Source: Micromonospora alfalfae (lineage in GTDB: Bacteria; Actinomycetota; Actinomycetes; Mycobacteriales; Micromonosporaceae). Taken from it: DNA of 64,000 bases. Made by a program: the position numbers and the translations under genes. Positions within the stretch are counted from its first letter, which is position 1; every line of letters begins with the position of its first letter. The stretch lies in the NCBI RefSeq assembly GCF_022230925.1, contig NZ_JAKKFH010000013.1:1-64000 (forward strand), given 5' to 3'. This document shows positions 14,897 through 36,378 of this stretch, piece after piece. The notes beneath the pieces were generated by a model. That model had not been told where the DNA came from. It saw nothing but the letters and a program-made list of their open reading frames with translations, and did not search any database.

Positions 14897-15919
14897 ATGC
14901 CGCCCGTGCAATTCGGTGTCGTCTCGCTGGGTGCCGCGTTGGGGGAACCGCAGGATGTCGCTGAGGTGGCACCGAGCTACGTGAAGGATCCCGAGCGTGT
15001 GATGGCGTGGGGCTATCGCACGTTCCATCGGGTCGTCGACGGAACCACGTCGGCGCACCTCGGCGCCCGAGCGGCCGCCCAGGCGTTGGAGCGTGCGCGG
15101 ATCGAGGTCGGCGAGGTCGATCTGCTCGTGGTGGCCGCCAGCGACGTCCCTGACTACCTGCAGTGGGACGTCTCCTCGGCGGTGGCCCGGGAGCTGGGGA
15201 TGGTCGGGACGCCGACCCTGCTGCTCACTCAGGCCTGCGCCGCCACGGTGACGGCGTTCCAGCAGATCGCCGGGACCTTCGCCGTCCGTGACGACGTGCG
15301 GACCGTCCTCCTCGTCGCGATCAACCAGGTCAGTGAGGGGCACGCCAACCGGATGAACACCAACACGTGTGTCTCCAGCGACGGGGCCGCCGCCGCGGTG
15401 TTGAGGCGGAACCACGCGACGTTGCGGTGGCTGGCGACCGACCAGTTCACTGATCCCGAATGCGTCGACTTCTTCCGGGTGGAGTACGGCGGGGCGGCGG
15501 CACCGATCGCCCCGGAGGGCCTCGGCAACCTCGAATTTGACCGGCTCGCCGCCGTCTACCGGCAGTTCCGCCGCGACCCCGACCACTTCACACGGTTCAC
15601 CCGCGAGTTGAACCAGCGGGTCGCTCTGGTCGTGGACAACGCCTTCGCGCGCTCCGGTGTCGACCGGGCCCGGCTGACCCGGCTGATCTACCTCAACGAC
15701 AACTACAAGGCGATGGTCGACGTGGCCGAGGCGGTCGGCTTGCCGCTCGATCGGACCAACTTCGAGCTGGGGGCGTCAATCGGCCACTGTGGCGCCGCTG
15801 ACCAGCTGATCTGCCTGGACACCTATGTCGAGCGCGGCGATCTGCAGAAGGGCGACGTGGTGGCACTGGCCGGCATCGGGTACGGCATGCACTGGTTCTG
15901 TACCCTCCTGGAGGTCTGA
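14897..15919 (+). CDS. KAS III-like ketoacyl synthase/acyltransferase with altered active site
   Basis: The 340-residue product has the thiolase-fold layout of FabH. The nucleophile is Cys114 in TQACAATVTAF, and SSDGAAAAVL matches the usual FGDGAGAxVL. The position of the catalytic His (HQAN in FabH) reads LNDNYKAM, with Asn267, while the usual Asn position (GNTSAAS) reads GHCGAAD, with His297, so the two partners look exchanged. Variants of this type in clusters often act as acyltransferases or use unusual acceptors; the reaction here is inference. ATG 14897 follows AAGGAAG. It is probably co-transcribed with the MFS gene and convergent with the AlaX-like gene. Confidence 0.85.
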   Translation: MPPVQFGVVSLGAALGEPQDVAEVAPSYVKDPERVMAWGYRTFHRVVDGTTSAHLGARAAAQALERARIEVGEVDLLVVAASDVPDYLQWDVSSAVARELGMVGTPTLLLTQACAATVTAFQQIAGTFAVRDDVRTVLLVAINQVSEGHANRMNTNTCVSSDGAAAAVLRRNHATLRWLATDQFTDPECVDFFRVEYGGAAAPIAPEGLGNLEFDRLAAVYRQFRRDPDHFTRFTRELNQRVALVVDNAFARSGVDRARLTRLIYLNDNYKAMVDVAEAVGLPLDRTNFELGASIGHCGAADQLICLDTYVERGDLQKGDVVALAGIGYGMHWFCTLLEV

Positions 15920-15928: not shown

Positions 15929-15956
15929 CTCATCGCGGCAGAGAGGCCGCGATGAG
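15929..15956. terminator. Hairpin between convergent KASIII and AlaX genes
   Basis: CTCATCGCGGC (15929-15939) pairs with GCCGCGATGAG (15946-15956) over a 6-nt loop. It starts 9 bp after the KASIII stop codon and overlaps the last codons of the AlaX-like gene, so it could end the rightward transcript and probably also the leftward operon. Confidence 0.6.
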
Positions 15957-16823: not shown

Positions 16824-16851
16824 GTGCGCAGTGCCTTCGACAGTGGGGCGT

Positions 16852-17844
16852 TCAGCTGGCGTTGGTGCGGCCGACGGCCGTACGCACGGCATCGGCCAGG
16901 TCGATACGGTAATGCTTGGCGAGCTCGGCGCAGAGCTGTTCGACAGTCACGTCGTATTGTTGACCACCTTCGTGTTGCAGGGCGTACCAGGCGAGCTGAC
17001 ATCCGATCGCGGCGGCGTCGATGTGCGACAGGCCCCAGTCGATGCCGGCGAAGAATCCGGCTCGGAAGGCGTCGCCACCGCCGGTGGGGTCGACCACCAC
17101 CGGGACCGACGCGGCGGGCACCGTGGCGTCGCCGTTTTCGTCGCGGATCCGTACGCCTCGCGGGCCGAGTGTGGTCACCACGGTGCCGACCAGCCCGAGC
17201 AGACCCTTCTTGGTCAGTTCGCACTTCTCCAGAAGCAGGTCGAACTCGTATTCGTTGGTCAACAGGTAGCGGGCCCCCGTGATGAAGGCACGCAGTTGCT
17301 CACCCGGCATCCCGGCGATCTGCTGCGACGGGTCGGCCGCGAAGGGCCAGCCGGCCTGCCGGCAGCAGGCTGCGTGTCTCAGCATGGCGACCGGCGAGTC
17401 GGGCGAGATGATCACCAGGTCCGGTGCGGCTCGGTCGGCACCGACGACGGCGGCCAGGTCCAGGCGATGGGCCTCGGCCATCGCGCCGGGATAGAAGGAC
17501 GCGATCTGGCACTGCTGCTCGTCAGTGGTGCAGATGAAACGGGCCGTGTGCTCGCCATCGACGACGAGCACTGGCGAGCAATCGACGCCGTGCCGTTCCA
17601 GGAACGATCGGTAGTCGGCGAAGTCGCGCCCGACCGCGCCGACCAGGCTCGGTCGTAGACCGAGCCTGCTCATGCCGTACGCGATGTTGGCGGCAACGCC
17701 ACCACGACGGATCACCAGTTCATCGACCAGGAAGGACAGCGACACCGCGTGCAGGCGGTCCGCGATGAACTGATCGGAGAAGCGGCCGGGGAAACGCATC
17801 AGGTGATCCGTGGCGATCGATCCGGTGACGTAGAGCCGCCCCAT
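16852..17844 (-). CDS. PfkB-family carbohydrate kinase, adenosine-kinase-like
   Basis: The 330-residue product has the ribokinase fold, with an N-terminal GGVAANIAYGMSRLGLRPSL glycine-rich motif (about residues 48-67) and DPTGGGDAFRAGF near 250, which holds the catalytic Asp and anion hole. It looks most like the bacterial adenosine-kinase-type members, which phosphorylate a nucleoside with ATP in the cytoplasm. It starts one base after the metK stop, so translation is coupled. With metK this suggests SAM supply with recovery of adenosine from spent S-adenosylhomocysteine. A sugar substrate is the alternative. Confidence 0.82.
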   Translation of the reverse strand: MGRLYVTGSIATDHLMRFPGRFSDQFIADRLHAVSLSFLVDELVIRRGGVAANIAYGMSRLGLRPSLVGAVGRDFADYRSFLERHGVDCSPVLVVDGEHTARFICTTDEQQCQIASFYPGAMAEAHRLDLAAVVGADRAAPDLVIISPDSPVAMLRHAACCRQAGWPFAADPSQQIAGMPGEQLRAFITGARYLLTNEYEFDLLLEKCELTKKGLLGLVGTVVTTLGPRGVRIRDENGDATVPAASVPVVVDPTGGGDAFRAGFFAGIDWGLSHIDAAAIGCQLAWYALQHEGGQQYDVTVEQLCAELAKHYRIDLADAVRTAVGRTNAS

Positions 17845-22585: not shown

Positions 22586-22599
22586 TCGGGAAGCGTGTG

Positions 22600-23649
22600 A
22601 TGAGCGTTCTTGAGCTGTGGTTACGCGAAGAGATCAACCCGGACGAGCACCGTACCGTCCTGACCCCTGATGACGCCCGGGTGCTGATCGCCGACGGCGT
22701 GCGGCTGACCGTCGAGGAGTCGGCGCACCGAATCTTCGACACCGGGGAGTACGCGGCGGCCGGTGCCCGGATCGTCGCGGCCGGCACCTGGCCGGAGGCG
22801 TCGGCCGAGACCGTCATCGTGGGGCTCAAGGCCCCTGCCGACGAGCCGGAGCCGCTGCGCCACCGGCACATCTTCTTCGGGCACGCCTACAAGGGTCAGC
22901 GCGACGGGGCGGCGCTGCTGCGCCGCTTCCGGGCCGGTGGAACTCTGCTGGACCTGGAATACCTGACCGACGACACGGGCCGTCGGGTCGCCGCGTTCGG
23001 CTACTGGGCCGGTTACGTGGGCGCGGCGTTGGCGCTCCTGCATTTCCGGGGCCGGCTCGTCCCGCCCCTACGGACGATGAGCCGCCCGGAACTGGACGAG
23101 GCTCTCGTCGCGTCCGGGAACGCCCGTGTACGGGCCTTGGTGATCGGTGCGCTGGGCCGGTGCGGCCGGGGCGCGCGAGACGCGCTGTCAGTGGGCGGAG
23201 TCGAGCCAACGGCGTGGGACGTCGCCGAGACCCGCGATCTCGACCGCCGGGCGATCCTCGACCACGATGTGCTGGTCAACACCGTGCTGTCGAACGAACT
23301 CGCGCCTCCGTTCGTGCGCCCGGAGGATCTCGACGACCCGGCTCGCAAGTTGTCAGTGATCAGCGATGTGACCTGCGACGTGACGTCCGAGTTCAACCTG
23401 CTGCCGATCTACCGGAACCCGACCGACTGGGCCCGGCCGGTGCACCACCTGCGTGCCGAGCCCGCGCTCGACCTGCTCGCCATCGACAACCTGCCTTCGT
23501 TGCTGCCGCGTGAGGCGAGTGCGGCCTTCTCCGCCGACCTGCTGCCGCACCTGCGCACCCTGCCGGACGACACGCCGGTCTGGCGACGGGCGTACGACCG
23601 GTTCGCCGCCGCGACATCTGAACTCGACCTGATGGGAAGCCCGTCGTGA
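22600..23649 (+). CDS. Saccharopine dehydrogenase (Lys1-type, L-lysine-forming)
   Basis: The 349-residue product matches the Lys1 family well: WLREEINPDEHRTVLTP at the N-terminus, then HRIFDTGEYAAAGARI, HIFFGHAYKGQRDG with the conserved His-Lys region near residue 90, and LLDLEYLTDDTGRRVAAFGY. The family interconverts L-lysine plus 2-oxoglutarate and saccharopine with NAD(H). Here it probably works toward saccharopine, in tandem with the next gene. Codon 8 is TTA (22621), inside the conserved N-terminus, so it is truly translated. Start ATG 22600; a GTG directly precedes it. The stop overlaps the next start. Confidence 0.9.
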   Translation: MSVLELWLREEINPDEHRTVLTPDDARVLIADGVRLTVEESAHRIFDTGEYAAAGARIVAAGTWPEASAETVIVGLKAPADEPEPLRHRHIFFGHAYKGQRDGAALLRRFRAGGTLLDLEYLTDDTGRRVAAFGYWAGYVGAALALLHFRGRLVPPLRTMSRPELDEALVASGNARVRALVIGALGRCGRGARDALSVGGVEPTAWDVAETRDLDRRAILDHDVLVNTVLSNELAPPFVRPEDLDDPARKLSVISDVTCDVTSEFNLLPIYRNPTDWARPVHHLRAEPALDLLAIDNLPSLLPREASAAFSADLLPHLRTLPDDTPVWRRAYDRFAAATSELDLMGSPS

Positions 23650-24797
23650 CATCCACCCTCACTGAGCCGACCGGACGGGTTCACTGGCTCGGCACCGGTC
23701 TGTCGACCGGGAGCGGGCTCGCCCTGGTCTGCGCCACCGCTACCGGCACCACGGTCTGGGGACGCAGCCGCGAGAAGGCGCAGGCCTGTCTCGACCGGCT
23801 CGGGCTCACCGGCCAGGCCGACGCGCGGGAACTCGGCTGGGAAGCCCTCGCCGACGCCGTACGCCCTGGTGATCTCGTGGTCTCCATGCTGCCGGCCGCG
23901 GAGCACCCGACAGTGCTGCGGCTCTGCCTGCGCCAGTCGGCGCACTTCGCCAGTTCCAGTTACGTCTCCGCGGAGGTCGCCGAGCTGGCCGCCGACGCGC
24001 GACGAGCCGGGCTCGTGGTGCTGACCGACGCGGGGCTCGACCCCGGAATCGATCATCTGCTGGCTCATCGGCTCGTTCAGGCCGCAGAGAAGGCCCTCGG
24101 CGATACTCCGGCGACTGTGTCGTTCACGTCGTACTGCGGGAGCTTCCCCGCGGTGCCGAACGACTTCCGCTACCGGTTCAGCTGGGCGCCGCGGGGTGTC
24201 CTGACCGCCCTCGGCACCCCCGCCCGCTTCGTGGAGGGTGGCCGCGAGCTGACCGTCGACCGGCCGTACCGCGCTGCGGAGAAGCTTGTCCTGGGTGGCG
24301 AACCATTCGAGGTCTACGCGAACAGGGACAGTATCCCCTACATCACCACATATCAGTTCCCTAAGTCCTGGGAGGTTGACACCTTCGTTCGCGGCACGGT
24401 CCGGCTCGACGGATGGACCGACGCCTGGCAGCCGGTCTTCGCTCAGCTGGAGAACGGCACCGCCGACGAGATCACCGCTCTGGCCGCGCGGCTGGCCGAG
24501 CAGTACCCGGCCACCAGCGAGGACCATGACCGGGTGGTCATGTTCGTACGGCTGGAGGCGGTTGCCGGCGACGGAGCGCGCTGGGCCGGCGAATACACGA
24601 TGGACGTCCAGGGGGATGCCACCGAGAACGCGACACCTCGCCTGGTCTCCGTGGCCCTCGCCGGCGGGCTCGCCGAGTTGCTGGCCGGACGGATGTCTCC
24701 CGGTCTGCACCAGGCGACCTCCGACCCCGGGTCGATCGACAGCTGGTTGGACTTCCTGTCCGCCAACGGCGTCGCCTGCCAGGAATATCTGCCATAG
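23646..24797 (+). CDS. Saccharopine reductase/dehydrogenase (Lys9-type, glutamate-forming)
   Basis: The 383-residue product has an N-terminal Rossmann domain (WLGTGLSTGSGLALV and SMLPAAEHPTVLRLC) and the hallmark VLTDAGLDPGIDHLLAHRL near residue 125, as in Lys9/LOR saccharopine reductases, which cleave saccharopine to L-2-aminoadipate 6-semialdehyde and glutamate. The glycine motif is atypical (GTGLSTGSG). GTG 23646 overlaps the Lys1 stop by 4 bp. With Lys1 it makes a complete lysine-to-aminoadipate-semialdehyde route, rare in bacteria as a dedicated pair and probably supplying a C6 precursor. Confidence 0.85.
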   Translation: MTSTLTEPTGRVHWLGTGLSTGSGLALVCATATGTTVWGRSREKAQACLDRLGLTGQADARELGWEALADAVRPGDLVVSMLPAAEHPTVLRLCLRQSAHFASSSYVSAEVAELAADARRAGLVVLTDAGLDPGIDHLLAHRLVQAAEKALGDTPATVSFTSYCGSFPAVPNDFRYRFSWAPRGVLTALGTPARFVEGGRELTVDRPYRAAEKLVLGGEPFEVYANRDSIPYITTYQFPKSWEVDTFVRGTVRLDGWTDAWQPVFAQLENGTADEITALAARLAEQYPATSEDHDRVVMFVRLEAVAGDGARWAGEYTMDVQGDATENATPRLVSVALAGGLAELLAGRMSPGLHQATSDPGSIDSWLDFLSANGVACQEYLP

Positions 24798-25907: not shown

Positions 25908-27131
25908 ATGAAATGCGCCATCGTCGACGCGTACGGCGCGGGCCGGCACCTGCCGGCAGCGCTGCGGCGTCGCGGCATTGAATTCATCCACATCCGCTCT
26001 GACGCTCCCGACTGGCGGCTCAGCTACCGGCCCGAGGAATTCACAGTCGACCTGAAGCACGAGGGTGACCTCGACGCCACAGTCGCCCGGCTCCGGGAGC
26101 ACGACGTCGGCATCGTCGTGGCCGGCGCCGAGTCCGGGGTGTTGCTGGCCGACCAGATGTCCGCCGCCCTGGGCACATCGGGCAACGGCATGCGGAATCC
26201 CCTGGCGCGGCGCGACAAGTTCGCCATGCACGAGTCGATCCGCGACGCCGGCCTGGCCGCCGCCGACGGCTTCCGGGCCGAGTCGGTCGACGAGATCCTC
26301 GGCTGGGCGGGTGACCGGGGGCAATGGCCGGTGGTTCTCAAGCCGCCGTCCAGTGCGGGCGGGGACAACGTCTACGTCTGCCACTCCCCTGACGAGATCA
26401 GGGACGCGTACGCGCGGATCACCGGCAACATCGACCGGTACGGCCGCCAGAACCGCCTCGTTCTGGTGCAACAGTTCCTGGCCGGCACCGAGTACTACGT
26501 CAACTCGGTCAGCCGGGCCGGTGTGCACCGGATCGTGGAGGTTTGGCGCTATCACAAGCGCTCCACCGGCGGTCGGACCATCTACGACTACGAGGACCTG
26601 CTGGCCTGGGATGACAGTGCGGCCCGGCAGATCGCCGACTACACCCTGGCGGTGCTGGACGCGCTTGAGATCCGTACCGGCGCAGGGCACACGGAGGTCA
26701 TGCTGACCGCGTCCGGACCGGTTCTGGTCGAGTGCGGCGCCCGCCTCGGCGGCGGCCAGATGCCTGAGCTGTTGACCCGGTGCACCGGCACCAACCAGGT
26801 CGACAGCCTCGCCCTGGCGATCGCCGACCCTGAGGTCTTCACGCGTCAGGGGACCAGCGGTTATCGGCTCGACGCCAATTTGCGCTGCGTCAACCTGATC
26901 ACCGAGCGCGACGGCGTCATGCCGGGTGCCGACGCCTGGGCGGCCGTCCGGGCGCTCCCGTCCTTCGACAGCCTGGTGCTCAACATCCCGGAGGGCACCC
27001 TCCTGTCGCCCACCACCGACATGGCCACCTGCCCGGGCACGCTCTACCTGTGTGCCCCCGACCGGCAGCAGGTCATCGCCGACTACGACCGGCTGCGCTC
27101 GCTGGAACTCGCCGGCCTCTACGGCAACTGA
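25908..27131 (+). CDS. ATP-grasp ligase
   Basis: The 407-residue product is a stand-alone ATP-grasp enzyme, with PVVLKPPSSAGGDNVYVCHS (the nucleotide lysine and glycine loop, near residue 143), LVLVQQFLAGTEYYVNSV, and the magnesium-binding HTEVMLTASGPVLVECGARLGG near 265-285. It would activate a carboxylate as acyl phosphate and join it to an amine or thiol. In butirosin assembly an ATP-grasp enzyme, BtrJ, loads Glu on the ACP and adds a gamma-glutamyl cap, a role that fits the neighbouring ACPs and BtrH-like genes (inference). ATG 25908 has AAGGAG at 7 nt; ATG 25893 overlaps the DMT stop. Confidence 0.88.
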   Translation: MKCAIVDAYGAGRHLPAALRRRGIEFIHIRSDAPDWRLSYRPEEFTVDLKHEGDLDATVARLREHDVGIVVAGAESGVLLADQMSAALGTSGNGMRNPLARRDKFAMHESIRDAGLAAADGFRAESVDEILGWAGDRGQWPVVLKPPSSAGGDNVYVCHSPDEIRDAYARITGNIDRYGRQNRLVLVQQFLAGTEYYVNSVSRAGVHRIVEVWRYHKRSTGGRTIYDYEDLLAWDDSAARQIADYTLAVLDALEIRTGAGHTEVMLTASGPVLVECGARLGGGQMPELLTRCTGTNQVDSLALAIADPEVFTRQGTSGYRLDANLRCVNLITERDGVMPGADAWAAVRALPSFDSLVLNIPEGTLLSPTTDMATCPGTLYLCAPDRQQVIADYDRLRSLELAGLYGN

Positions 27132-27238: not shown

Positions 27239-27511
27239 GTGCCCACCGGAACCGCCGACCGCGCCGCAGTTGCGGCCACCGTCAAGCGGGTCGTCATCGC
27301 ACAGTCCCAGCTGACGATCAGCGCCGGTCGGATCACCGAGACAGAGCCGCTCACCGGGCCGCTGCTGGACGTGACCTCGCTGGGCCTGCTCGCCGTAATG
27401 CTCAAGATCGAAGAAGAGCTCGGTGTCACGCTGCCCGACGATCTGTTCTCCGCCCCCCTGCCGCGCACCGTGGGCGACCTGGTCGACCTCGTGCAGCGGG
27501 CCGCCCGATGA
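27239..27511 (+). CDS. Acyl/aminoacyl carrier protein 1
   Basis: The 90-residue product has the four-helix ACP pattern. LLDVTSLGLLAVMLKIEEELG holds the candidate phosphopantetheine Ser47; the usual DSL reads TSL here, so the residue before Ser is Thr rather than Asp. LPDDLFSAPLPRTVGDLVDLV is the typical C-terminal part. GTG 27239 follows GGAAGGAG at 7 nt. The TGA stop overlaps the ATG of the BtrH-like gene, so the two are made together. Confidence 0.85.
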   Translation: MPTGTADRAAVAATVKRVVIAQSQLTISAGRITETEPLTGPLLDVTSLGLLAVMLKIEEELGVTLPDDLFSAPLPRTVGDLVDLVQRAAR

Positions 27512-28614
27512 GCGGCCCCGCCGCCGGATTCGGCGCGGCCCTCGATGCGCTGCCCGCCGACCTGTTCGACTGCGTGCAGGTCAACCTCGCGCTGCTGGCC
27601 GACGTGCGGCACGGACCCGGCACCCATCTGCGCCTCGGCGCGCGGCTCGCCTTCCGGCCCCGGCTCGACGACGGTTGGTGGACAGTCGAACCCGTTCCTG
27701 CCGACCAGGTGGATCACTCGGCCGGGCTCCTCGGCCTCGCAGTCGCCGAGCGCTGGGACGCCTGCCCGGCGGACCGGGTGCCCGAGTTGATCGCCGGGCG
27801 CGAGCCGCTCTACGTCGTCGCCGACGCCTACCACCTGCCGTGGCTTCCCTACGCCGGGCAGGAGCACATGCGGCACAGCTTCCTTGTGCACTCCCACGAT
27901 GACGGCGTACGTGTCTGGGACGCCTACCGCAACGACACCCGATGGGGGCCGGCAGTACCGGGACACTGGGACCTGAACGTGAAGGACCTGGTCACGGCAC
28001 TCGGCGACACCGCCGACGTGATCAGCTTCGGCGCGGCGGCGCTGCCCGACCCGCGGCCGACGGTCGAGCTCGACGACCCGACCGAATACCTGGCCGCGTA
28101 CGCCGACGCCCCGGACCCCGCTGCCGCGCTCGCCCGCCTGACCCTGCAGACCTGGCTGCTCGCACGGTCCCGGCTGCTGCACGCCACCAGCCGCGGAATG
28201 GAACTCCAGGAACATCTCGGGGCCTGGCAGGGGCTGGTTCAGCAGACCTACGTCGCGTGGCGGATGGCGCAGCGCGGCCGGCCGGCGTCGGAGGCCCCGC
28301 TGCGGCGACTTGGTGAGCTGCTGCACCGGGACCAGGCGCTCTTCGCCGTACCGGCGGCCGGCGGGCAGCAGTGGCGGCAGCACGTCGCCGAGGCTGCCGC
28401 GTCCGTCCTCCGCCTGCCCGTGCCAGTGGTGCTGGGCGGCGCCCGGTTCGACACCTCCCCCGAGTACGGCTCGTTGCGGATCGTCGAGATCGTCGAGCTG
28501 GTGGAACGGGTGGTCGGTGTGGAGTTGTCCGCCGACGATCTCGTGCCGGAGAACCTGCAGGACCTCGACGGCCTGTGCCGGATCGTCGCCCGCGCCGGGA
28601 CCGGCGCCCGATGA
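27508..28614 (+). CDS. BtrH-like acyltransferase fused to a C-terminal carrier domain
   Basis: The 368-residue product has two domains. Residues about 15-200 resemble the BtrH N-terminal, C39-peptidase-like fold: Cys22 in FDCVQVNLALLADV, His123 in EHMRHSFLVHSH and Asp138 in RVWDAY form a likely Cys-His-Asp triad, and LYVVADAYHLPWLPY matches the family. BtrH moves an aminoacyl group from an ACP to the butirosin aminoglycoside amine. Residues about 300-365 look like a carrier domain, EYGSLRIVEIVELVERV, with Ser322 as the pantetheine site and VPENLQDLDGLCRIV after it. The start and stop overlap the neighbouring genes (ATGA). Domain calls are by eye; the fusion is unusual. Confidence 0.72.
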   Translation: MSGPAAGFGAALDALPADLFDCVQVNLALLADVRHGPGTHLRLGARLAFRPRLDDGWWTVEPVPADQVDHSAGLLGLAVAERWDACPADRVPELIAGREPLYVVADAYHLPWLPYAGQEHMRHSFLVHSHDDGVRVWDAYRNDTRWGPAVPGHWDLNVKDLVTALGDTADVISFGAAALPDPRPTVELDDPTEYLAAYADAPDPAAALARLTLQTWLLARSRLLHATSRGMELQEHLGAWQGLVQQTYVAWRMAQRGRPASEAPLRRLGELLHRDQALFAVPAAGGQQWRQHVAEAAASVLRLPVPVVLGGARFDTSPEYGSLRIVEIVELVERVVGVELSADDLVPENLQDLDGLCRIVARAGTGAR

Positions 28615-30086
28615 CCCTTCTGCACGAGCTCTTCGACACGGCGGCCCGGCGTGCCCCCGACGACGTGGCCGTCACCGCGGGCCCGGACCGGACCACCTTC
28701 GCCGAGGTGGTGACATCGGGTCGCCGGATCGCGGCCGGGCTGCTCGGGGCGGGGCTGCGCCGCGGTGACCGGCTGGTGATCGTGTCACCGCCGTCGGTGG
28801 TCCTGCCCGCCGTCCTGTACGCCGCGGCCCGCGTCGGCGTCATCTTCGTCGTCCTGCACGAACAGCTCCGCGGCGATCCGTTGCGACATGTGCTCGATGA
28901 CTGTGAGCCGGCCCTGGTCCTCAGCGATGACGCGGAGGTCAGAGTCCTGGCGGCCGAGTCCGGGTCCGCAGCGGGCGACCTCAGCGGACTGGTGGCGCGG
29001 GCACCGCTGGACGGCCTGCCGCCGGGTGGTGAGCCGCTGACAGTGGACCCGGTGTGTCTTGTCTACACCTCCGGTTCCACGGCTCGACCCAACGCGGTGG
29101 TCTCCACCCACCAGCAGATGCTGTTCGCTGTCGCGGCCATTCAGGATGCCGTTGGCTATCGCCGCGACGACGTGGTGTTCTGCCCGTCACCGGTCTCCTT
29201 CGACTACGGGCTGTACCAGCTCTTCCTCTGTGCGCTCAGCGGCGCTCGGATACACCTGGCCGGTCTGACCGTCACCGGGCCCGGCCTGACGGCGGCGCTC
29301 ACCGCGACCGGCGCGACAGTGCTCGCGGCAGTCCCGTCGACGGCCGAGATGCTGGCCCGGCTGCTGGGCCGTGGCGGTGAGCCGCCGGAACTGCGGCTGC
29401 TCACCACCACCGGCGCGGCGATGCCCGTGGACCTGCTGCAGACGCTGCGGGCCCGGATGCCGAATCTGCGGACCCAGGTGATGTACGGCCTGACCGAATG
29501 CAAGCGGGTCGCCATCATGCCCCCGGACGGTGATCGGGAGCGGCCCGGGTCGAGCGGCCGGCCGCTGGCCGGGACGGAAGTGTTCGCCATCGACAGTAAG
29601 GGACGTCGTCTGCCCGACGGTGCCGTCGGTGAGCTGGTGGTCCGCGGCCCGCATGTGATGTCCGGCTATTGGCGGCGTCCGGAGCTGACCGCCGACCGGT
29701 TCCGGGTGGAGGAGGGCCTCACCACCCAGCTGCGCACCGGCGACCAGGGCCGGGTGGAGACCGGGGGATGGGTCTACGTCGACGGTCGTACCGACGACAT
29801 CTACAAGGAACGCGGATACCGGGTGAGCGCCACCGAGGTGGAGGCCGCGGCTCGCCGGATACCGCGGGTCACGTCCGTCGCGGTCCTGCCACCGCGCGAC
29901 GGCGTGCGGTCGGTGCTGGTCGCCGTCACGGAGCTGGCGGCGGAGACGGTGCTGGACCAGCTGCGCGACCATCTCGAGGTCTTCAAGATCCCGCAACGGT
30001 GCGTGGTGGTCGACGGTCTGCCGCTTACCCACAACGGCAAGATCGACCGCAAGGCCCTGACCACCCTGGTGGCCGAGAGTGCTTGA
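28611..30086 (+). CDS. AMP-dependent acyl/aminoacyl ligase 1 with altered P-loop
   Basis: The 491-residue product is an ANL-superfamily adenylating enzyme. The A3 core reads YTSGSTARPNAVVSTH, so the usual GxPKG is changed to ARPNA and the lysine is lost. Later cores are normal: MYGLTECKR (A5), TGDQGRVETGGWVYVDGR (A7-A8) and LTHNGKIDRKAL (A10) with the catalytic Lys. It probably still adenylates a carboxylate and loads an ACP, but the substrate is unknown. It is coupled by overlaps of 4 bp with the BtrH-ACP gene and 8 bp with the decarboxylase. Confidence 0.88.
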   Translation: MTLLHELFDTAARRAPDDVAVTAGPDRTTFAEVVTSGRRIAAGLLGAGLRRGDRLVIVSPPSVVLPAVLYAAARVGVIFVVLHEQLRGDPLRHVLDDCEPALVLSDDAEVRVLAAESGSAAGDLSGLVARAPLDGLPPGGEPLTVDPVCLVYTSGSTARPNAVVSTHQQMLFAVAAIQDAVGYRRDDVVFCPSPVSFDYGLYQLFLCALSGARIHLAGLTVTGPGLTAALTATGATVLAAVPSTAEMLARLLGRGGEPPELRLLTTTGAAMPVDLLQTLRARMPNLRTQVMYGLTECKRVAIMPPDGDRERPGSSGRPLAGTEVFAIDSKGRRLPDGAVGELVVRGPHVMSGYWRRPELTADRFRVEEGLTTQLRTGDQGRVETGGWVYVDGRTDDIYKERGYRVSATEVEAAARRIPRVTSVAVLPPRDGVRSVLVAVTELAAETVLDQLRDHLEVFKIPQRCVVVDGLPLTHNGKIDRKALTTLVAESA

Positions 30087-31353
30087 CCACGAGCTGGCCC
30101 GCCACGTCGCGGCCACTGCCGGAACCCCGGCTTACGTGTACGACCTGGCAGCCGCGCGGGACAACCTCGCCGCCCTGCGCATCGCCCTGCCCGAGGGGAC
30201 CGACACGTACTACTCGGTGAAGGCCAACCGGCACCCGGAAATGCTGCGCGCGCTGCGCGACGCCGGCAGTCGTGCCGAGGTCTGCTCGCCGGGCGAACTC
30301 AGCGCCGCTCTGGCGGCCGGCTGGGATCCCGGCACCATCCTGTACGCCGGTCCCGGCAAACGTGACGTCGACCTGCGCACCGCGCTTGCCGGGGGCGTGC
30401 GGCACTTCTCGGTGGACTCGCCGAACGCCCTGGACCAGCTGAACCGGTGTGCGGAAGCGGCTGGCGTGCCGGTGTGGTGCCTGCTGCGGATCAACGCCGA
30501 CGCGCCCGCGTCCCGGCCCGGCCTGACCATGACCGGGGTGTCGTCGCCGTTCGGTGCCGACGCCCGCTGGGTGGCGACCGCCCCGGAGCGGTTCGGGCAC
30601 CGGCCGCACGTGACAGTGACCGGGCTGCACCTCTACATGGGCACCAACCTGACCACCGTCGACGATCTGCTCGCCCAGTTCACCAGCAGCCTGCGCACCG
30701 CCGCCGACCTGCGCGAGGTGCTGCGCGCCCAAGGGGTACGCCTGGACGTGCTCGACCTCGGCGGCGGGTTCGGTGCGCCGTTCGGCCGGGCCGGCGGTCG
30801 CCTCGACCTGTCCGGGCTGCGTGAGCCGCTCACCGCCCTGCTGGACGCGGAGGTACCGGACTGGCGGGACGGCCGACCCCGGATTGCCTTTGAATCGGGC
30901 CGCTACCTCGTCGGTACCGCCGGCACCCTGCTCACCCGGGTCCTCGACGCGAAATCGTCGCACGGCAGCTACCTGGTCGTCCTCGAGTCAGGCATCAACC
31001 ACCTCGGCGGCCTGTCGGGGCTGCGCCGCCTCCCACCGCTGGTGCCGAGCCTGATCCCGGTCGACGCTGCGGCACCCACAGCGGTCACGGTGCCGACCAC
31101 CGTGTGCGGCCCGCTGTGCACTCCGCTGGACGTATGGGCGCGGGGCGTCGAACTGCCCCGGCTCGAACCCGGCGACCTGCTGGCTGTACCAAACGTCGGC
31201 GCCTATGGCCTGGACGCGAGCCTGCTCGCCTTCCTGGGCCACCCGCTGCCGGCCGAGGTGGTTCTCGACTCCACCGCCCCGGAACCGGCCACCTGGCACG
31301 TGTCCCGGATGGACCTGGTCCGTACCCCGATCTCCCTGGGAGAGCCGCTGTGA
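30079..31353 (+). CDS. Fold-type III PLP decarboxylase, BtrK/VinO-like
   Basis: The 424-residue product belongs to the ornithine/diaminopimelate decarboxylase fold. Lys49 or nearby in YYSVKANRHPEML carries PLP; LDLGGGFGAPF binds phosphate; AFESGRYLVG and CGPLCTPLDVW hold the substrate-side residues, followed by GAYGLDASLLAFLGHPLP. The GPLCTPLD form is typical of cluster enzymes such as BtrK and VinO, which decarboxylate amino acids while bound to an ACP. Flanked by a ligase and an ACP, it fits that role here. GTG 30079 overlaps the ligase end; the stop overlaps the ACP start (GTGA). Confidence 0.87.
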   Translation: MLDHELARHVAATAGTPAYVYDLAAARDNLAALRIALPEGTDTYYSVKANRHPEMLRALRDAGSRAEVCSPGELSAALAAGWDPGTILYAGPGKRDVDLRTALAGGVRHFSVDSPNALDQLNRCAEAAGVPVWCLLRINADAPASRPGLTMTGVSSPFGADARWVATAPERFGHRPHVTVTGLHLYMGTNLTTVDDLLAQFTSSLRTAADLREVLRAQGVRLDVLDLGGGFGAPFGRAGGRLDLSGLREPLTALLDAEVPDWRDGRPRIAFESGRYLVGTAGTLLTRVLDAKSSHGSYLVVLESGINHLGGLSGLRRLPPLVPSLIPVDAAAPTAVTVPTTVCGPLCTPLDVWARGVELPRLEPGDLLAVPNVGAYGLDASLLAFLGHPLPAEVVLDSTAPEPATWHVSRMDLVRTPISLGEPL

Positions 31354-31589
31354 ATCCGGAGTTCGTCGCGCTGCTGTCGCGTTTCCTCAAGTACGCCACC
31401 CCCGACCAGATCACCGCCGACGCCTCACTGCACGATCTGGGCCTGGACTCGATGCAGTCGATCGAACTGCTCTTCGCCATCGAGGACGACTGTGGTGTCA
31501 GCCTTCCCGACGAGGCGTTGACCGAGAGCACGTTCGCCACTGCCGGAAGCCTCTGGGCGGCCGTGCGCAACGCTCGCGGTGACGCCTGA
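31350..31589 (+). CDS. Acyl carrier protein 3, canonical DSM type
   Basis: The 79-residue product has LHDLGLDSMQSIELLFAIED, with Ser34 as phosphopantetheine site in a classical LGxDSM motif, and a normal C-terminal helix region. GTG 31350 overlaps the decarboxylase stop and the TGA shares a base with the next ATG. Its place directly after the decarboxylase makes it the best candidate for the carrier on which decarboxylation and later oxidation take place. Confidence 0.92.
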   Translation: MNPEFVALLSRFLKYATPDQITADASLHDLGLDSMQSIELLFAIEDDCGVSLPDEALTESTFATAGSLWAAVRNARGDA

Positions 31590-32767
31590 TGACGGCGGTG
31601 GCGGCTACGGTCGTCGACCTGGCCGGGCGGGTGGAACGGGTCGCGGCGGTGGCCCGGGAACATGCCCGGCGTACCGACGACGAGGCGGTCTTCCCCACCG
31701 AGGCGCTGGCCGAACTGCGCGCATCCGGGCTGCTGGCGCTGGTCGTGCCGGCCGCGTACGGCGGGCTGGGCGGCGGCCCGGCGGAACTGATCGACTGCGC
31801 CGAGTCGCTGGCCCGCGCCGATCTGTCGGTGGCTCTGATCTTCGCGATGCACTGCCAGCAGGTCGCCACCGTCGCCAGGTATGGCGGCGATGAGCTGCGG
31901 GCGACTCTTCTGCCGCGCATCGCCGCTGGCGAACGCTATCTGGCGTCGGTGACCACCGCCGCGGGCACCGGTGGTCACCTGTTGTCCGCGAGCGCGCCGC
32001 TGCGGGACACGGAGGAGGGACTGCTGATCGAGCGGTTCGCGCCGATCGTCACCGGCGGTGCCCACGCCGACGGCTTCCTCATCACCATGGGCAGCCCCGG
32101 CGCCGACGTACCCGGACAGGTCTGCCTCGTCTATGCCGAGCGCGAGCAGTTGGAGATCACCGAGTCGGGCCAGTGGCAACCGATGGGCATGCGGGCCAGC
32201 CACAGTGTGGCGCTACGGCTCACCGGTACGGTCCCCCGCCACCAGCTGATCGGCGCGGAGCACGGGTTCCGGGAGATCTCGTTGGCCCTCTTCTCGCCGC
32301 TGGCCCACCTCGGTTGGGCCGCCTGCTGGCTGGGTGCCGCCGCCGGGGCGCTGTCGCGGGTGGCGACCCTGCTGCGCAGCCCCGACGGCCGGCGCCGATT
32401 CGACCATCAGTCCGAGTTGCTCCTGACCCGTCTGGGTCGGGCCCGCCATCGGATCGACGCCGTCCACGCGCTGCTGCGGCACACCCAGCGCATCGTCGAG
32501 GACGGCGGTGACCTGTCGACCGCGCCGGTGCAGATGCTGCTCAACGGCCTGAAGGTGACCGCGGCGGAGTCGTGCCGGCAGGCCGTCGAGGAACTCGTCG
32601 ACGCGGTCGGGTTGCGGCACGGCTACTTCAAGGACTCGGACACCTACCTCGAACGGGTCCTGCGGGATCTGCGGTCGGCGTCGCTCAACTACCACAACGA
32701 CCGGCTCGACCTCGCCGACGGACGGCACGTGCTGCTCGACCGGAAAGTCACCCATGTTGGTGGGTGA
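31589..32767 (+). CDS. Acyl-CoA dehydrogenase-like flavoprotein 1
   Basis: The 392-residue protein has the acyl-CoA dehydrogenase layout: an alpha-helical N-terminus with ELRASGLLALVVPAAYGGLG, a central beta domain (SVTTAAGTGGHLLSASAP, WQPMGMRASHSVALRLTG) and a C-terminal helical domain. The TTAAGT segment and MGMRAS resemble DszC/hydroxylase-type members, so it could oxidise or hydroxylate an ACP-bound substrate with FAD or FMN. It starts on the last base of the ACP stop codon and overlaps the second dehydrogenase by 14 bp. Confidence 0.85.
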   Translation: MTAVAATVVDLAGRVERVAAVAREHARRTDDEAVFPTEALAELRASGLLALVVPAAYGGLGGGPAELIDCAESLARADLSVALIFAMHCQQVATVARYGGDELRATLLPRIAAGERYLASVTTAAGTGGHLLSASAPLRDTEEGLLIERFAPIVTGGAHADGFLITMGSPGADVPGQVCLVYAEREQLEITESGQWQPMGMRASHSVALRLTGTVPRHQLIGAEHGFREISLALFSPLAHLGWAACWLGAAAGALSRVATLLRSPDGRRRFDHQSELLLTRLGRARHRIDAVHALLRHTQRIVEDGGDLSTAPVQMLLNGLKVTAAESCRQAVEELVDAVGLRHGYFKDSDTYLERVLRDLRSASLNYHNDRLDLADGRHVLLDRKVTHVGG

Positions 32768-33839
32768 GCGGACGACAGGGTCCGGCGACGCGCTGGCCCG
32801 GGCCCTCACCGGTGACCGTCCGGTGTGGCCCGCTCTGGGGGCGTCCGGCGTCATCGCGTCCCTCTACGAGCCGGACGGACGCGTCAGTCCGGAACGGCTC
32901 GGCCGGCTGCTGGCCGCGGTGGACGCGTCCCAGCCGATCGGGGTCACACTGGGCGTCTGTGTGCAGGTCGCGGCGGCACTTCCGCTGCTGCGTACAGCCC
33001 TGCCGGATCATCCGCTGACCGCCGAGGTGACCGCCGGGCGGGCGGTGCTGGCGCTTGCCGCCACCGACAGCGGCCGTGGTTCGCAGCTGAGCTCGCTGGG
33101 CAGCGGCTACCGGATCGACGGCGACCGGCTCACCCTGACCGGCACGAAACGGTGGATCACCAACGCGCGTACCGCCGACGCGTTCCTCGTGCTGGCCCGG
33201 CACGAGGAGGGCAGGCACTTCACCAGCTTCAGCTTCGTGCTGGTCCCGGCCGGCGCTCCCGGTGTAACTGTGACCCCGGCCCGCACCGAGTTGTTCGACG
33301 GGGCCGGGCTCGGCGACGTGACGTTCACCGGCGTACAGCTCCCCGCCACCGCCGTCGTCGGCGGCCGTGGCCGGGGGATGGCACTGTTCGCCCGGCACAT
33401 CGCCACCGAACGGCTGGCCGGTGGTCTGTGGGCGGTCGCCCTGTGCCGGCGTGTGCTGACCGACACCGTGGAACGCCTGCGCCGGCCCGACGACGGCGGC
33501 ACCTCTCTCTGGCACGACCCGGGCGTACGGCGGCACGTGGCCGGATGCCTGGCCCGCGTCCACGAACTCCGCGCGGTGTGCGTGACCGCCGGCCCGCTGG
33601 TCGCCACGCGGCACGATCCCGCAGCCGCGGCCCGGGTGAAGATCGCCACCGCCGACACCGTCGACCACGTGCTCGGTGAATGCGCCCGGCTGCACGGCGC
33701 GGACGGGTTCGTCGACGACGGCGTCCAGCGGCTGCGTACGGAGGCGGCGGTGTTCGGCATCGGTGGCGGTGTCGGCGAGGTGGCCCGTGAGCTGCTCGCC
33801 GACCGGGTCGACGACCTCCTGCACGGTCTCGCATGGTGA
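32754..33839 (+). CDS. Acyl-CoA dehydrogenase-like flavoprotein 2
   Basis: The 361-residue product has LALAATDSGRGSQLSSLGSGY, then LTLTGTKRWITNARTADAFLV (typical flavin-contacting segment), ELFDGAGLGDVTFTGVQLP and a C-terminal helical bundle with LHGADGFVDDGVQRL. It lacks the longest N-terminal helices of the family. Two adjacent, divergent family members suggest either a heteromer or two sequential oxidations of a tethered acyl chain, as in pathways that form unsaturated aminoacyl-ACPs. Start ATG 32754 lies inside the preceding gene. Confidence 0.85.
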   Translation: MLVGERTTGSGDALARALTGDRPVWPALGASGVIASLYEPDGRVSPERLGRLLAAVDASQPIGVTLGVCVQVAAALPLLRTALPDHPLTAEVTAGRAVLALAATDSGRGSQLSSLGSGYRIDGDRLTLTGTKRWITNARTADAFLVLARHEEGRHFTSFSFVLVPAGAPGVTVTPARTELFDGAGLGDVTFTGVQLPATAVVGGRGRGMALFARHIATERLAGGLWAVALCRRVLTDTVERLRRPDDGGTSLWHDPGVRRHVAGCLARVHELRAVCVTAGPLVATRHDPAAAARVKIATADTVDHVLGECARLHGADGFVDDGVQRLRTEAAVFGIGGGVGEVARELLADRVDDLLHGLAW

Positions 33840-33862
33840 CGGTGGTCCGGGAAGGGGGAACG

Positions 33863-34732
33863 ATGACGAACTGGGCGGATCTGAGCTGCTACACCAGCAA
33901 CCTGGCCGCCTACCTGGCACCCGGGCGGCCGCACCTGCGGTCCGAACTGGCCGACGCGGTTCGTCTCGCGGTCCTCCCCGCGACGACGGCACTGTCGCAC
34001 CACAGCCGTATCGACGGTGGCAGCCTGGGATATGTCGGGACGGGCCGGTGGGCGGAGGCCACGGCCGGGATCGCCGCTGAGCTGGAGACCCACGGCAAGG
34101 TCCTGGCGGTCGCGAACACCGAACAGCTGCAGTGGTCTCCCGAGTACCAGCGCCGCGCGACGCCGCACTGGGTGCTGCTGACCGGCCGGCCCGGAGGCGG
34201 CTGGCAGGTGGAGGACCACTTCGCCGCGACGACCCCGCACGGCGATCATCGGCCGTACCACGGGCAGGTCACCGAGGACGAGCTGAAGGTGCTGCTCTCG
34301 CCGGTCACCACGGCGTCCGGTGAGGTCGCCAACCGCGATCGGCACGCCCTCGGCGAGCCCGTCGAGGTGCCACCGCCATCGCAGTACCGCTGGCTGGCCC
34401 GTACCGCTGCGGTGCGTACTCCCGTGGAGCCGGGGTGGCTCACCGGCTCGGACGCGGTGACGCATCTCGCCGCGGTGGTCGAGGACCGGGCAAGGCTCGC
34501 CGCTCTGGCCGACGACCTGTGGGCGGCCAGCCGGCACCAGCTCTTCCGCCACCGGGTCCGGTCGGCCGCCGGGCTGACCGACCCGGCGGCCGCCGCTGCC
34601 GCTGTCTCCGCGTGGGAGGAACTCCCACGGGCTCTGCGGTTCGCCGTGGAGTCGGCCGACCGTGGGCGGCCCCGGCCGGGTGTGGTCCGTGCCGCGTTCG
34701 ACCGGATCATCACCGAGGGGGCGACCGCGTGA
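33863..34732 (+). CDS. Second BtrH-like Cys-dependent acyltransferase candidate
   Basis: The 289-residue product begins NWADLSCYTSNLAAYLAP, with Cys9 placed like Cys22 of the BtrH-ACP fusion, and continues with ATPHWVLLTGRPGGGWQVED, where His102 and Asp118 could complete a Cys-His-Asp triad. The C-terminal 100 residues are helical and different from the first protein, and there is no carrier domain. I infer a distant C39/BtrH-like transferase; the match is weak and the protein may be family-unassigned. ATG 33863 follows GAAGGGGGAA; ATG 33833 is an alternative. GTGA overlap with the next ligase. Confidence 0.5.
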   Translation: MTNWADLSCYTSNLAAYLAPGRPHLRSELADAVRLAVLPATTALSHHSRIDGGSLGYVGTGRWAEATAGIAAELETHGKVLAVANTEQLQWSPEYQRRATPHWVLLTGRPGGGWQVEDHFAATTPHGDHRPYHGQVTEDELKVLLSPVTTASGEVANRDRHALGEPVEVPPPSQYRWLARTAAVRTPVEPGWLTGSDAVTHLAAVVEDRARLAALADDLWAASRHQLFRHRVRSAAGLTDPAAAAAAVSAWEELPRALRFAVESADRGRPRPGVVRAAFDRIITEGATA

Positions 34733-36378
34733 ACACGCTGTACGACTGGTTCGCCGAGTCCGCCGCCCAGCATCGGGATCGGATCGCGCTGGACCTGGGC
34801 GTCAACCGGCTCCGGTACGGGGAACTCGACGATCTCGCCGGCCGGGTCGCCGCTGCGGTGGTGCGCCGGCTCGGACAGCCCCCGAACCGGCTGGGGCTGC
34901 TCGCGGCTCGCAGCGCCGGTGCGTACGCCGGATATCTCGCCGCGTACCGGCTGAATGCCACGGTCGTGCCGCTCAATCCGGCGTATCCGCCTGCGCGGAC
35001 CGCGGCCGTCGCCACGGCGGCCGAGCTGGACCTGGTCCTCGCCGACGCCGGTGGCAGCGCCGGTGCGGTGCCGGTGCTACCTGTCGACGACAGTGCTCTC
35101 GCCGCGCTCCCACCTGCCAACGGGGTGGCCGCACATTGGGCGGACGCGGCCCGTCCGGCGTACATCATGTTCACCTCCGGGTCGACCGGGACGCCGAAAG
35201 GCGTGCCGGTGACCCATGCCAACGTGCTCGCCTTCCTGCGGGCCGTGGCCGGACGCGCGGAGCTGACCAGCGACGCCCGGGTGTCCCAGATGTTCGACCT
35301 CACCTTCGACCCGTCGATCTTCGACCTGTTCGCCACCTGGGGCGCCGGAGCGACGGTGGTGGTGCCGCAACCGGCCGACCTGTTGGCGGCGGTCCGGTTC
35401 GTCCGGCAACGCGAGATCACCCATTGGAGTTCGGTGCCGTCGGTGATCGCCATCGCGCGGCGGCTACGGCAGCTGGGCCCGGACCGGATGCCGACGTTGC
35501 GATGGAGCATGTTCTGCGGCGAGCCGCTGTCCGTCGACGCTGCGGCCGCCTGGCAGGGTGCCGCGCCGAACAGCGTCATCGAGAACATGTACGGACCCAC
35601 CGAACTCACGGTCACCTGCACCGGCTACCGCCTGCCGGCATCGCCCGCCGACTGGCCGGCCACCACGAACGGCACCGTGCCCATCGGGGAGCCCTACCCG
35701 GCAGTCGCCTGGCTACTGCTCGACGAGGACCTGCGCCCCGCAGCCGAGGGAGAGCTGTGCGTCAGGGGCCCGCAGCGGTTCCCGGGTTATCTCGACCCGG
35801 CGGACGACAGCGAGCGGTTCGTCACCGAAGCCTCCGGCAGTTACCGGCTCCGCCATGGCACGCCGTCCGGATCGGACTGGTACCGGACCGGAGACCGGGT
35901 CCGCCACGAGAACGGCCGGTTGATCCACCTCGGCCGGCTGGACCACCAGGTGAAGGTGTCCGGATACCGCGTCGAACTCGGCGAGATCGAGGCGGTCGCC
36001 CGGCGACACCCGGAGGTGGCGCAGGCTGTCGCCCTGGCCCTCGCCGTGCCGACGGGCGGTGTGGAGCTGCACCTCGCCTACGAGGGGCCGGTGGTCGACG
36101 AGGAGCAGCTGCTGGCCATGCTGCGGGCCACGCTCGCTCCGTTCATGGTGCCCCGCCGGCTCACGCGGTTCGAGGCTCTGCCGCTCACCGCCAACGGCAA
36201 GATCGACCGGGGCCTGCTCGGCCGTGTCCTGCGGTCAGTTCAACTTCCGGGACAGGGCCCGGGTGGCGCGTCGCATCAGCTGCCGAACGGCGGGGGACCG
36301 GTCGCCGGCCCGGACGGTGGCGCGGATCTGTCGGTTCGGGCATCTATTGTCCCGAGTGTGGGCGGCATGCCAACCTGA
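34729..36378 (+). CDS. AMP-dependent ligase 2 (amino-acid adenylation-domain type)
   Basis: The 549-residue protein is closest to NRPS-like or D-Ala-carrier-ligase adenylation domains: MFTSGSTGTPKGVPVTH (A3), FDLTFDPSIFDLF (A4), NMYGPTELTVTCTGY (A5), DWYRTGDRVRHENGRLIHLG (A7), DHQVKVSGYRVELGEIE (A8) and LTANGKIDRGLL (A10 Lys). The A4 Asp that binds an alpha-amino group is present (SIFDLF), so an amino acid substrate is likely. It has no fused carrier domain and must load one of the separate ACPs. A tail of about 45 residues after A10 is Gly/Pro-rich. Confidence 0.9.
   Translation: MNTLYDWFAESAAQHRDRIALDLGVNRLRYGELDDLAGRVAAAVVRRLGQPPNRLGLLAARSAGAYAGYLAAYRLNATVVPLNPAYPPARTAAVATAAELDLVLADAGGSAGAVPVLPVDDSALAALPPANGVAAHWADAARPAYIMFTSGSTGTPKGVPVTHANVLAFLRAVAGRAELTSDARVSQMFDLTFDPSIFDLFATWGAGATVVVPQPADLLAAVRFVRQREITHWSSVPSVIAIARRLRQLGPDRMPTLRWSMFCGEPLSVDAAAAWQGAAPNSVIENMYGPTELTVTCTGYRLPASPADWPATTNGTVPIGEPYPAVAWLLLDEDLRPAAEGELCVRGPQRFPGYLDPADDSERFVTEASGSYRLRHGTPSGSDWYRTGDRVRHENGRLIHLGRLDHQVKVSGYRVELGEIEAVARRHPEVAQAVALALAVPTGGVELHLAYEGPVVDEEQLLAMLRATLAPFMVPRRLTRFEALPLTANGKIDRGLLGRVLRSVQLPGQGPGGASHQLPNGGGPVAGPDGGADLSVRASIVPSVGGMPT

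Follow-up and report, generated by a model that had tools for sequence, protein, structure and literature searches.

A putative papain-fold amide synthase fused to its own acyl carrier protein domain in an actinobacterial biosynthetic operon

Papain-fold amide synthases such as BtrH, CcbD, and CtaG join carrier-bound acyl groups to amines without a condensation domain, and in the best-studied relatives the pairing of amide-forming enzyme and carrier is split between separate proteins; in butirosin biosynthesis, for instance, the acyl carrier protein (ACP) is a separate protein, BtrI. The lincosamide enzyme CcbD is described as taking carrier-bound proline onto a cysteine and then transferring it to an amine by a ping-pong mechanism (PMC12945683), and CtaG of closthioamide biosynthesis has been proposed to acylate carrier-held beta-Ala with a group taken from another carrier, with formation of an amide (PMC6772006). 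For lincosamides, a carrier fused to the condensing protein was considered by the authors of a paper whose cited passages place the carrier on unrelated sugar enzymes (PMC4351081). The present analysis concerns a 64,000-nucleotide stretch of Micromonospora alfalfae (assembly GCF_022230925.1, contig NZ_JAKKFH010000013.1, positions 1 to 64,000 of the forward strand; hereafter the window), in which the open reading frame (ORF) P0001 (27508-28614, + strand; ATG at 27508, stop codon at 28612-28614; 368 aa) combines a synthase-like domain with a carrier domain. Papain-fold, carrier-dependent amide synthases are already known, and the attached carrier is the new variant. From sequence, predicted fold, and analogy, the product is very probably an acyltransferase with a functional ACP, and the ORF as a whole is tentatively read as an amide synthase-carrier didomain that serves natural-product biosynthesis in an actinobacterium.

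The G+C content by codon position is coding-like in both halves of the ORF (0.81/0.50/0.88 and 0.81/0.45/0.93), and homologues extend over both domains, with a sister gene in one genome 85% identical and 13 others about 37-39% identical (tblastn). These observations identify 27508-28614 as a real gene and rule out a chance or mis-framed ORF. The gene overlaps the upstream gene of a separate ACP (ACP1, 27239-27511) by 4 bp (ATGA), as the first-pass annotation of this DNA had described, and overlaps a downstream ligase gene (28611-30086) in the same way, again by the 4 bp ATGA.

Residues 1-284 (27508..28359) are assigned to a papain/C39-like amide synthase (acyltransferase) domain by AlphaFold2 modelling, structural comparison with VIA-align, and profile comparison with hhalign. 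The AlphaFold2 model of the whole didomain, built from a homologue alignment of 45 rows (A2), reached a predicted local distance difference test (pLDDT) value of 94.1 and a predicted template modelling (pTM) score of 0.79, with ten-residue blocks up to residue 280 mostly at pLDDT 91-98. Residues ~10-285 aligned with CcbD at Z 17.4 (255 residues aligned, 3.3 Å), and the N-domain model aligned with CtaG at Z 17.2 and with AziU3/U2 at Z 17.1, each over ~255 residues; the next papain-like fold, PCAT1, followed at Z 11.3. In addition, comparison of a profile of the N-terminal part (A4) with one of BtrH_N/DUF4872 proteins (A5) gave a match of moderate strength (probability 85.1, E 6.2e-6, 234 columns), and BtrH_N was detected at E<=0.01 in 5/45 homologues scanned singly, the best at 0.0019. 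The predicted nucleophile Cys22 (27571..27573), the predicted catalytic base His123 (27874..27876), and the predicted third triad member Asp138 (27919..27921) were invariant, together with Ser322 of the C-terminal domain, in the first 15/15 aligned sequences, and the three N-terminal residues remained so in 45/45 sequences of the wider alignment A2, which suggests a catalytic role. A BtrH/C39-type N-terminal domain with a Cys22-His123-Asp138 triad had been proposed from the letters of the DNA, and both the modelled fold and the invariant residues bear it out. BtrH itself presumably has a Cys-His-Asp triad as well.

The fold alone is no proof of acyl transfer, since AziU3/U2, the top Foldseek match of the didomain model by E-value (5.6e-06, 18% identity), is an aziridine-forming system. 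The N-terminal domain could accordingly perform other chemistry on a carrier-bound substrate, such as a cyclisation as in AziU3 or a thioester hydrolysis, and no amide synthesis; this appears distinctly improbable, given that the invariant Cys-His-Asp is near the triad of the acyl-transferring CcbD as described (PMC12945683), that CcbD and CtaG are level with AziU3/U2 by Z, and that, besides a stand-alone adenylation enzyme (Aden2), a second BtrH-like protein, and an ATP-grasp enzyme, no further amide-forming enzyme was recognised in the operon.

The C-terminal residues 287-368 (28366..28611) constitute a predicted ACP domain according to AlphaFold2, VIA-align, and profile matches of the family, with helices at 287-301, 322-336, 347-350, and 353-367. 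Ser322 (28471..28473), the predicted 4'-phosphopantetheine attachment site, is invariant in 41/41 ACP-bearing homologues and begins the long helix 322-336, an ACP-like start of helix II. Compared with labelled ACPs, residues ~284-368 gave Z values of 10-12.1 (7auf top) with a root-mean-square deviation of about 2 Å over ~80 residues, and an 85-residue chain of 8xks, which bears no carrier label, matched the C-terminal domain at Z 12.8. Columns 300-380 of the family profile (A1) match carrier proteins in the PDB (best 2lki, E 2e-4); nearly all of the best 60 of 61 PDB matches (E up to 10) are carrier proteins, and Ser322 aligns on the conserved Ser of the solved ACPs. PF00550 was found at E<=0.01 in 31/45 homologues scanned singly, the best at 4.8e-8. 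The C-terminal 70 residues had been proposed to adopt a four-helix ACP carrying Ser322 at the modification site, and the model returned such a domain, within the same ORF as the BtrH-like domain, so that the fusion itself also stands.

Two other interpretations of this C-terminal domain were rejected. A degenerate pseudo-ACP, with Gly-Ser in place of Asp-Ser, does not fit a family in which the residue preceding Ser322 varies (Ser in 11, Asn in 10, Thr in 8, Asp in 8, and Gly in 4 of 41 sequences) while Ser322 is invariant, nor a ratio dN/dS against the sister gene that is no higher in the ACP part (0.38) than in the N-terminal part (0.46). Nor is the domain the DUF4872-like helical tail of BtrH, which corresponds to residues ~190-280 and to which the ACP is additional.

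The didomain is a conserved family in dozens of actinomycetes and is not peculiar to the window. A search of 201 genomes, made up of the window's own and 200 relatives, gave matches at E<=1e-5 in 17, its own included; one of these (G040) lacked an ACP in the same frame and another (G039) gave a partial match only. Across the phylum, 2/396 genomes matched at E<=1e-10, the window's own included. A scan of genome contigs with a 15-sequence alignment yielded 47 loci, located by two short patterns around Ser322 and around Cys22, in Streptomyces, Amycolatopsis, Micromonospora, Salinispora, Dactylosporangium, Actinoplanes, Saccharothrix, Actinomadura, Kribbella, and other genera. Three loci were excluded from A2, namely L069, L081, whose frame is disturbed, and L089, which contains runs of N. 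Within A2, the fused ACP is kept in 41/45 homologues from many genera; as the two-pattern search favours fused forms, this is no unbiased frequency. The gene in L081:9947-11443 (Streptomyces himastatinicus) is seemingly frame-shifted, with the frame continuing into the gene of a second separate ACP (ACP2), through either sequencing error or decay. Ordinary BtrH_N proteins are different in this respect: PF14399 matched in 28/296 genomes over the phylum, the window genome not among them, and a set of 30 actinobacterial loci, 28 of them with a full frame (L117 and L118 left out), showed BtrH_N in 28/28, DUF4872 in 27/28, and a carrier domain (PP-binding, E<=0.01) in 0/28.

The two domains are also found apart. 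G040 encodes a 286-aa synthase and an 88-aa ACP in two genes ~6.5 kb from each other, and in four Streptomyces loci (L062, L065, L066, L091) they are separate genes of one cluster, where the lone ACP adjoins the genes of Aden2 and of an acyl-CoA-dehydrogenase-family protein (ACDH1). A tree of the N-domain, rooted at the midpoint only, unites these four split loci in one clade (support 100/100) nested among the fused forms. Such natural fission, with the ACP staying in the cluster, suggests that the C-terminal domain behaves as an ACP able to stand alone. In Streptomyces seoulensis A01 (CP054936.1), the fused locus L047 and the split locus L062 lie on one chromosome, about 70 kb apart, and possibly belong to one large region. 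Tolerance of fission, together with the short linker of the window protein and the lincosamide carriers, which are described as fused to proteins unrelated to condensation (PMC4351081), would suit a model in which the ACP is a scaffold or an in-trans partner: the protein would be a dimer in which the carrier works with the adjacent subunit, or else with the second BtrH-like protein (33833-34732), and the fusion would only fix stoichiometry. This model seems improbable, as the fusion is retained in most homologues across many genera, a count that the search itself favoured, and a second BtrH-like gene was not seen in 21/47 loci, some of them short.

The neighbourhood of the didomain gene, with all genes on the + strand, points to beta-amino acid chemistry. 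An ATP-grasp ligase (25908..27131; NCBIfam PRK07206-type, above cut-off) is followed by ACP1 (27239..27511; PF00550 at 25.3 bits, above cut-off, and AmcB-like under cut-off). Downstream of the didomain is a VinN-like adenylating ligase (28611..30086; PDB 3wvn, E 1.5e-100), whose predicted substrate is an aspartate-like amino acid loaded through its beta-carboxyl, and in which Asp230 and Arg331 of VinN are conserved and Ser299 is replaced by Thr; 3wvn is VinN, with which the residue numbering fits. It is followed by a BtrK-like decarboxylase dependent on pyridoxal phosphate (PLP) (30079..31353; PDB 2j66, BtrK, E 1.3e-50, and 7ru7, L-glutamyl-BtrI decarboxylase, E ~1e-50), ACP2 (31350..31589; PF00550 at 46.3 bits), the acyl-CoA-dehydrogenase-family flavoprotein ACDH1 (31589..32767; Pfam Acyl-CoA_dh_N at 68 bits), and the acyl-CoA-dehydrogenase-family protein ACDH2 (32754..33839; Acyl-CoA_dh_1 at 70.7 and Acyl-CoA_dh_M at 65.3 bits). 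ACDH2 has an invariant Glu219-Arg220 in 41 aligned sequences, and Glu355 is the only invariant Glu of ACDH1 in 42; the two proteins differ in this respect, and Glu219 is perhaps a catalytic Glu of the isovaleryl-CoA-dehydrogenase type. They may form a heteromer. Thus, VinN-like, ACP, BtrK-like, and ACDH genes stand together in the operon, whose predicted content matches the published route to (dehydro-)beta-alanine.

The operon continues with the second BtrH-like protein, which has no ACP (33833..34732; triad residues 19, 112, and 128; hhalign, AlphaFold2, VIA-align). A Pfam scan of this protein gave no match; its profile nevertheless matched the didomain N-part (probability 98.2, E 3e-14), its model (pLDDT 92) aligned with AziU3, CtaG, and CcbD at Z 16-17, and Cys19, His112, and Asp128 are invariant in 25/25 sequences. 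Aden2 (34729..36378) matched PF00501 at 218.6 bits and PDB chains at E 1e-87, with 8k4r as its nearest solved structure and 6akd among single-domain chains; these are presumably VinM and IdnL7, respectively. Further upstream in the window are an AlaDH/PNT-family dehydrogenase, possibly of the saccharopine/lysine type (22597..23649; Pfam AlaDh_PNT_N at 78.4 bits), a saccharopine-dehydrogenase-family protein (23646..24797; Sacchrp_dh_C at 117.9 bits), and a beta-ketoacyl-ACP synthase III (KAS III)-like protein (14897..15919), conserved at 93% in the cluster of the sister genome (G106). Beside the latter, two genes at 15930-17844 (one with a weak, sub-cut-off tRNA_SAD match, the other a PfkB kinase) lie in a stretch that is otherwise collinear with G106, and the gene calls of G106 contain no counterpart to them.

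The same partners recur beyond the window. In 15-20 kb regions of the related genomes, 14/16 carried the ligase, decarboxylase, ACP2, ACDH1, ACDH2, and Aden2 beside the didomain, and the set was incomplete in G040 and the distant G039. Among the 47 loci, the ligase, decarboxylase, ACP2, and both ACDHs occurred together in 31 (29 with ligase and decarboxylase at >=45% identity), and ACP2, ACDH1, and ACDH2 each occurred in 41. The second BtrH-like gene was found in 26/47, always alongside ACP2, ACDH1, and ACDH2; in L085:17150-19657 it is in frame with the following adenylation enzyme, giving an 836-aa ORF that may be a fusion or a missed stop. Matches to phosphopantetheinyl transferase (PPTase) were obtained in 34/47 loci with the query L025:15945-16637 (a PPTase by Pfam), which had no match within the window.

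Four loci are informative for their reduced content. L077, L079, L088, and L090 combine the didomain with stand-alone Aden2-like enzymes (43-52% identity) and nonribosomal peptide synthetase (NRPS) genes, three of them also with a PPTase match, and contain no ACP2, ACDH, VinN-like, BtrK-like, or second BtrH-like gene within 19-21 kb. The presence of an Aden2-like enzyme without ACP2 hints that such an enzyme can charge the fused ACP. Upstream of the NRPS and the BtrH-ACP didomain in L077 (positions 1343-5403; Dactylosporangium vinaceum) lie a cupin gene and a class I (M-type) tRNA-synthetase-like gene (Pfam), with a gene that is lysine-N-oxygenase-like by eye, a set known from hydrazine-forming pathways. 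A gene set of this type is described in a published survey (PMC2922099). Another cluster type, comprising L068, L071-L073, L078, L080, L082, and L086, has, alongside the core, genes of the myo-inositol-1-phosphate-synthase and inositol-monophosphatase families (Pfam for L031) and a dehydrogenase that is Gfo/Idh-like by eye, which gives a hint of a cyclitol-type acceptor. In L023:4616-5929, a gene resembling a radical S-adenosylmethionine enzyme or lysine aminomutase by eye only matched no Pfam family at E<=0.001.

Within the favoured explanation, the fused carrier domain probably holds the building block of the amide-forming enzyme, and the cluster product is probably an unusual peptide-like compound. 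A PPTase would first arm Ser322, and since the window showed no gene for one, it would have to be supplied from another part of the genome. The fused ACP would then be charged with an acyl group or amino acid by an adenylation enzyme, for which Aden2 is a candidate, the papain-like domain would take this group onto Cys22 with the assistance of His123 and Asp138, and the group would be linked as an amide to a beta-aminoacyl group on another carrier. Finally, the ACDH pair would desaturate the N-acyl-beta-alanyl thioester to an enamide (dehydro-beta-alanine). In bolagladin biosynthesis, aspartate is proposed to be loaded via its beta-carboxyl, decarboxylated, N-acylated, and desaturated, and deletion of bolQ is reported to give the beta-Ala analogue (PMC7756342); in AFC-BC11 biosynthesis, loading and decarboxylation were reconstituted with AfcQ, AfcK, and AfcP (PMC12186527). 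Combined with CcbD and CtaG, these precedents suggest that the didomain most likely uses its own ACP as the source of an acyl group for the amine of a beta-aminoacyl-ACP, or for another amine. As to the order of events, the AFC-BC11 authors argue that a free enamine would be unstable (PMC12186527), which favours N-acylation ahead of desaturation.

The roles of the carriers in this scheme are more tentative. Since CcbD transfers from a carrier to a free amine, and CtaG, as proposed, from a carrier to a carrier-held amine, the fused ACP may give the acyl group or receive it; its role as donor has somewhat less than an even chance, and beta-Ala-ACP2 as acceptor is a possibility to be held slightly more cautiously still. 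Alternatively, the protein could be a loading didomain comparable to VinK, with the fused ACP as the acceptor: Aden2, acting like VinM, would add an amino acid to beta-aminoacyl-ACP2, and thioester exchange catalysed by the papain-like domain would place the (dehydro)dipeptidyl group on the fused ACP. Carriers fused as acceptors are familiar from the loading modules with acyltransferase and ACP domains, and the best solved relatives of the ligase and Aden2 (3wvn and 8k4r, the latter presumably VinM) also suit this model. In vicenistatin biosynthesis VinM is described as acting on beta-aminoacyl-VinL, with VinK moving the dipeptide from VinL to a loading ACP of the polyketide synthase (PKS) (PMC11284099). 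We nevertheless consider the loading didomain unlikely, because amides, and not thioesters, are the products of CcbD and, as proposed, of CtaG, because the surroundings of the operon showed no recognisable PKS gene (the whole window not having been scanned with family models), and because four loci have the didomain without ACP2. An extension of the amide-synthase reading appears about as doubtful: the didomain might be a self-contained NRPS-like elongation unit, a 'Cys-protease-type C-T module' in which the papain-fold synthase stands in for the condensation domain and acts in cis on the carrier attached to it. Such a unit would build enamide blocks (N-acyl dehydro-beta-amino acids) in an extensive family of actinobacterial pathways, in many members of which the carrier-free paralogue would make a second amide.

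Several observations weigh against the amide synthase-carrier reading. The favoured mechanism is a proposal drawn from sequence, predicted fold, and published relatives. In the window protein, Gly precedes Ser322 in place of the usual Asp (Gly in 4/41), and the linker is short, at 10 residues where the family median is 21; it leaves carrier use in cis and across a dimer both possible, and, with the pTM of 0.79, Ser322 may or may not reach Cys22 within one chain. The CcbD triad is reported as Cys-His-Glu (PMC12945683), whereas that of the didomain is Cys-His-Asp (45/45). Scanned singly, P0001 scored 12 bits against BtrH_N, below the gathering cut-off of 29.7, and gave no PF00550 (PP-binding) match at E<=1; its sole NCBIfam match, of residues 322-362 to the AmcB carrier protein (E 0.033), was also under cut-off, so that a single-sequence annotation would have read 'unknown'. 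Likewise, a PDB sequence search with P0001 found no relative, a PDB search with the profile A4 gave chance matches only and no relative, and the genome-contig scan with P0001 as single query found no locus. The two further carriers of the cluster (27239-27511 and 31350-31589) are each a possible donor, and a tblastn search with a PPTase query from G085 detected no PPTase gene in the window or within ~60 kb round the sister gene (best E 0.048). The scheme is at its weakest on what charges the fused ACP. Aden2 was found at >=40% identity in 40/47 loci and is thus no universal partner; it was missing from L045, L052, and L089, which are short loci, and from L054, L057, L064, and L075, of 19-21 kb, and as four of the longer loci are without it, Aden2 is a candidate only. 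An earlier view of Aden2 as the most constant partner was abandoned, since the plain tblastn count of 44/47 includes several NRPS adenylation domains at 31-35%, and the recount lowered our estimate of the fused ACP as donor from even to slightly below even.

Among described systems, the operon resembles in content those of bolagladin (BolO-BolC-BolN-BolQ) and AFC-BC11 (AfcQ-AfcK-AfcP-AfcE), which are reported to combine a VinN-like ligase, a free ACP, a PLP decarboxylase, and an acyl-CoA- or acyl-ACP-dehydrogenase-like enzyme (PMC7756342, PMC12186527); the bolagladin decarboxylase is described as BtrK-like, as in the window (PMC7756342). However, N-acylation there is ascribed to KAS III homologues (bolagladin, as proposed) or to a fatty acyl-AMP ligase (AFC-BC11) (PMC7756342, PMC12186527), and no BtrH-like didomain was seen in the cited parts of these accounts, whereas the window has two ACDH and two BtrH-like genes. 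The vicenistatin pathway (VinN, VinL, VinO, VinM, VinK) shares a ligase, a carrier, a decarboxylase, and a second adenylation enzyme (PMC11284099), but there VinK, described as an acyltransferase and dipeptidyltransferase, moves the acyl group and feeds a type I PKS, and neither a desaturase pair nor a papain-fold enzyme was seen in the cited passages (PMC11284099). With its ligase-decarboxylase-dehydrogenase set for beta-alanine-derived enamides in 31/47 loci, the family offers a sizeable set of clusters for product discovery, none of them assigned to a product in the literature searched.

At the level of the enzyme, BtrH of butirosin biosynthesis (PF14399 BtrH_N and PF16169 DUF4872) is linked to the N-terminal part by profile homology and by the BtrK-like decarboxylase next to the didomain; it differs in that P0001 lies under the BtrH_N cut-off and that BtrH_N proteins were without a carrier domain (0/28). 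CtaG has a similar fold (Z 17.2) and acts in a beta-alanine pathway (PMC6772006), but is about 10% identical and has no carrier of its own, CtaH and CtaE being separate. A survey of 2010 describes BtrH-family proteins, ACPs, acyl-CoA dehydrogenases, and saccharopine dehydrogenase in other bacterial operons, with a BtrH-ACP fusion not seen in the passages cited (PMC2922099), and a search of the open-licence PMC literature turned up no account of this gene set, nor of any BtrH/CcbD-type protein with an attached ACP. The likeness to CcbD/LmbD lies in the fold (Z 17.4 over 255 residues) and, by prediction, in the Cys nucleophile and carrier-bound donor reported for CcbD (PMC12945683); CcbD is about 12% identical to the didomain and is without its own carrier, the lincosamide carrier residing on CcbZ or LmbN, which the cited account describes as unrelated to condensation (PMC4351081). 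As the fusion is conserved, the use of carriers in cis or in trans by papain-fold amide synthases becomes testable on one polypeptide. The arrangement that was considered and then disproved for lincosamides, as far as the cited passages relate (PMC4351081), exists here and is conserved in dozens of actinomycetes.

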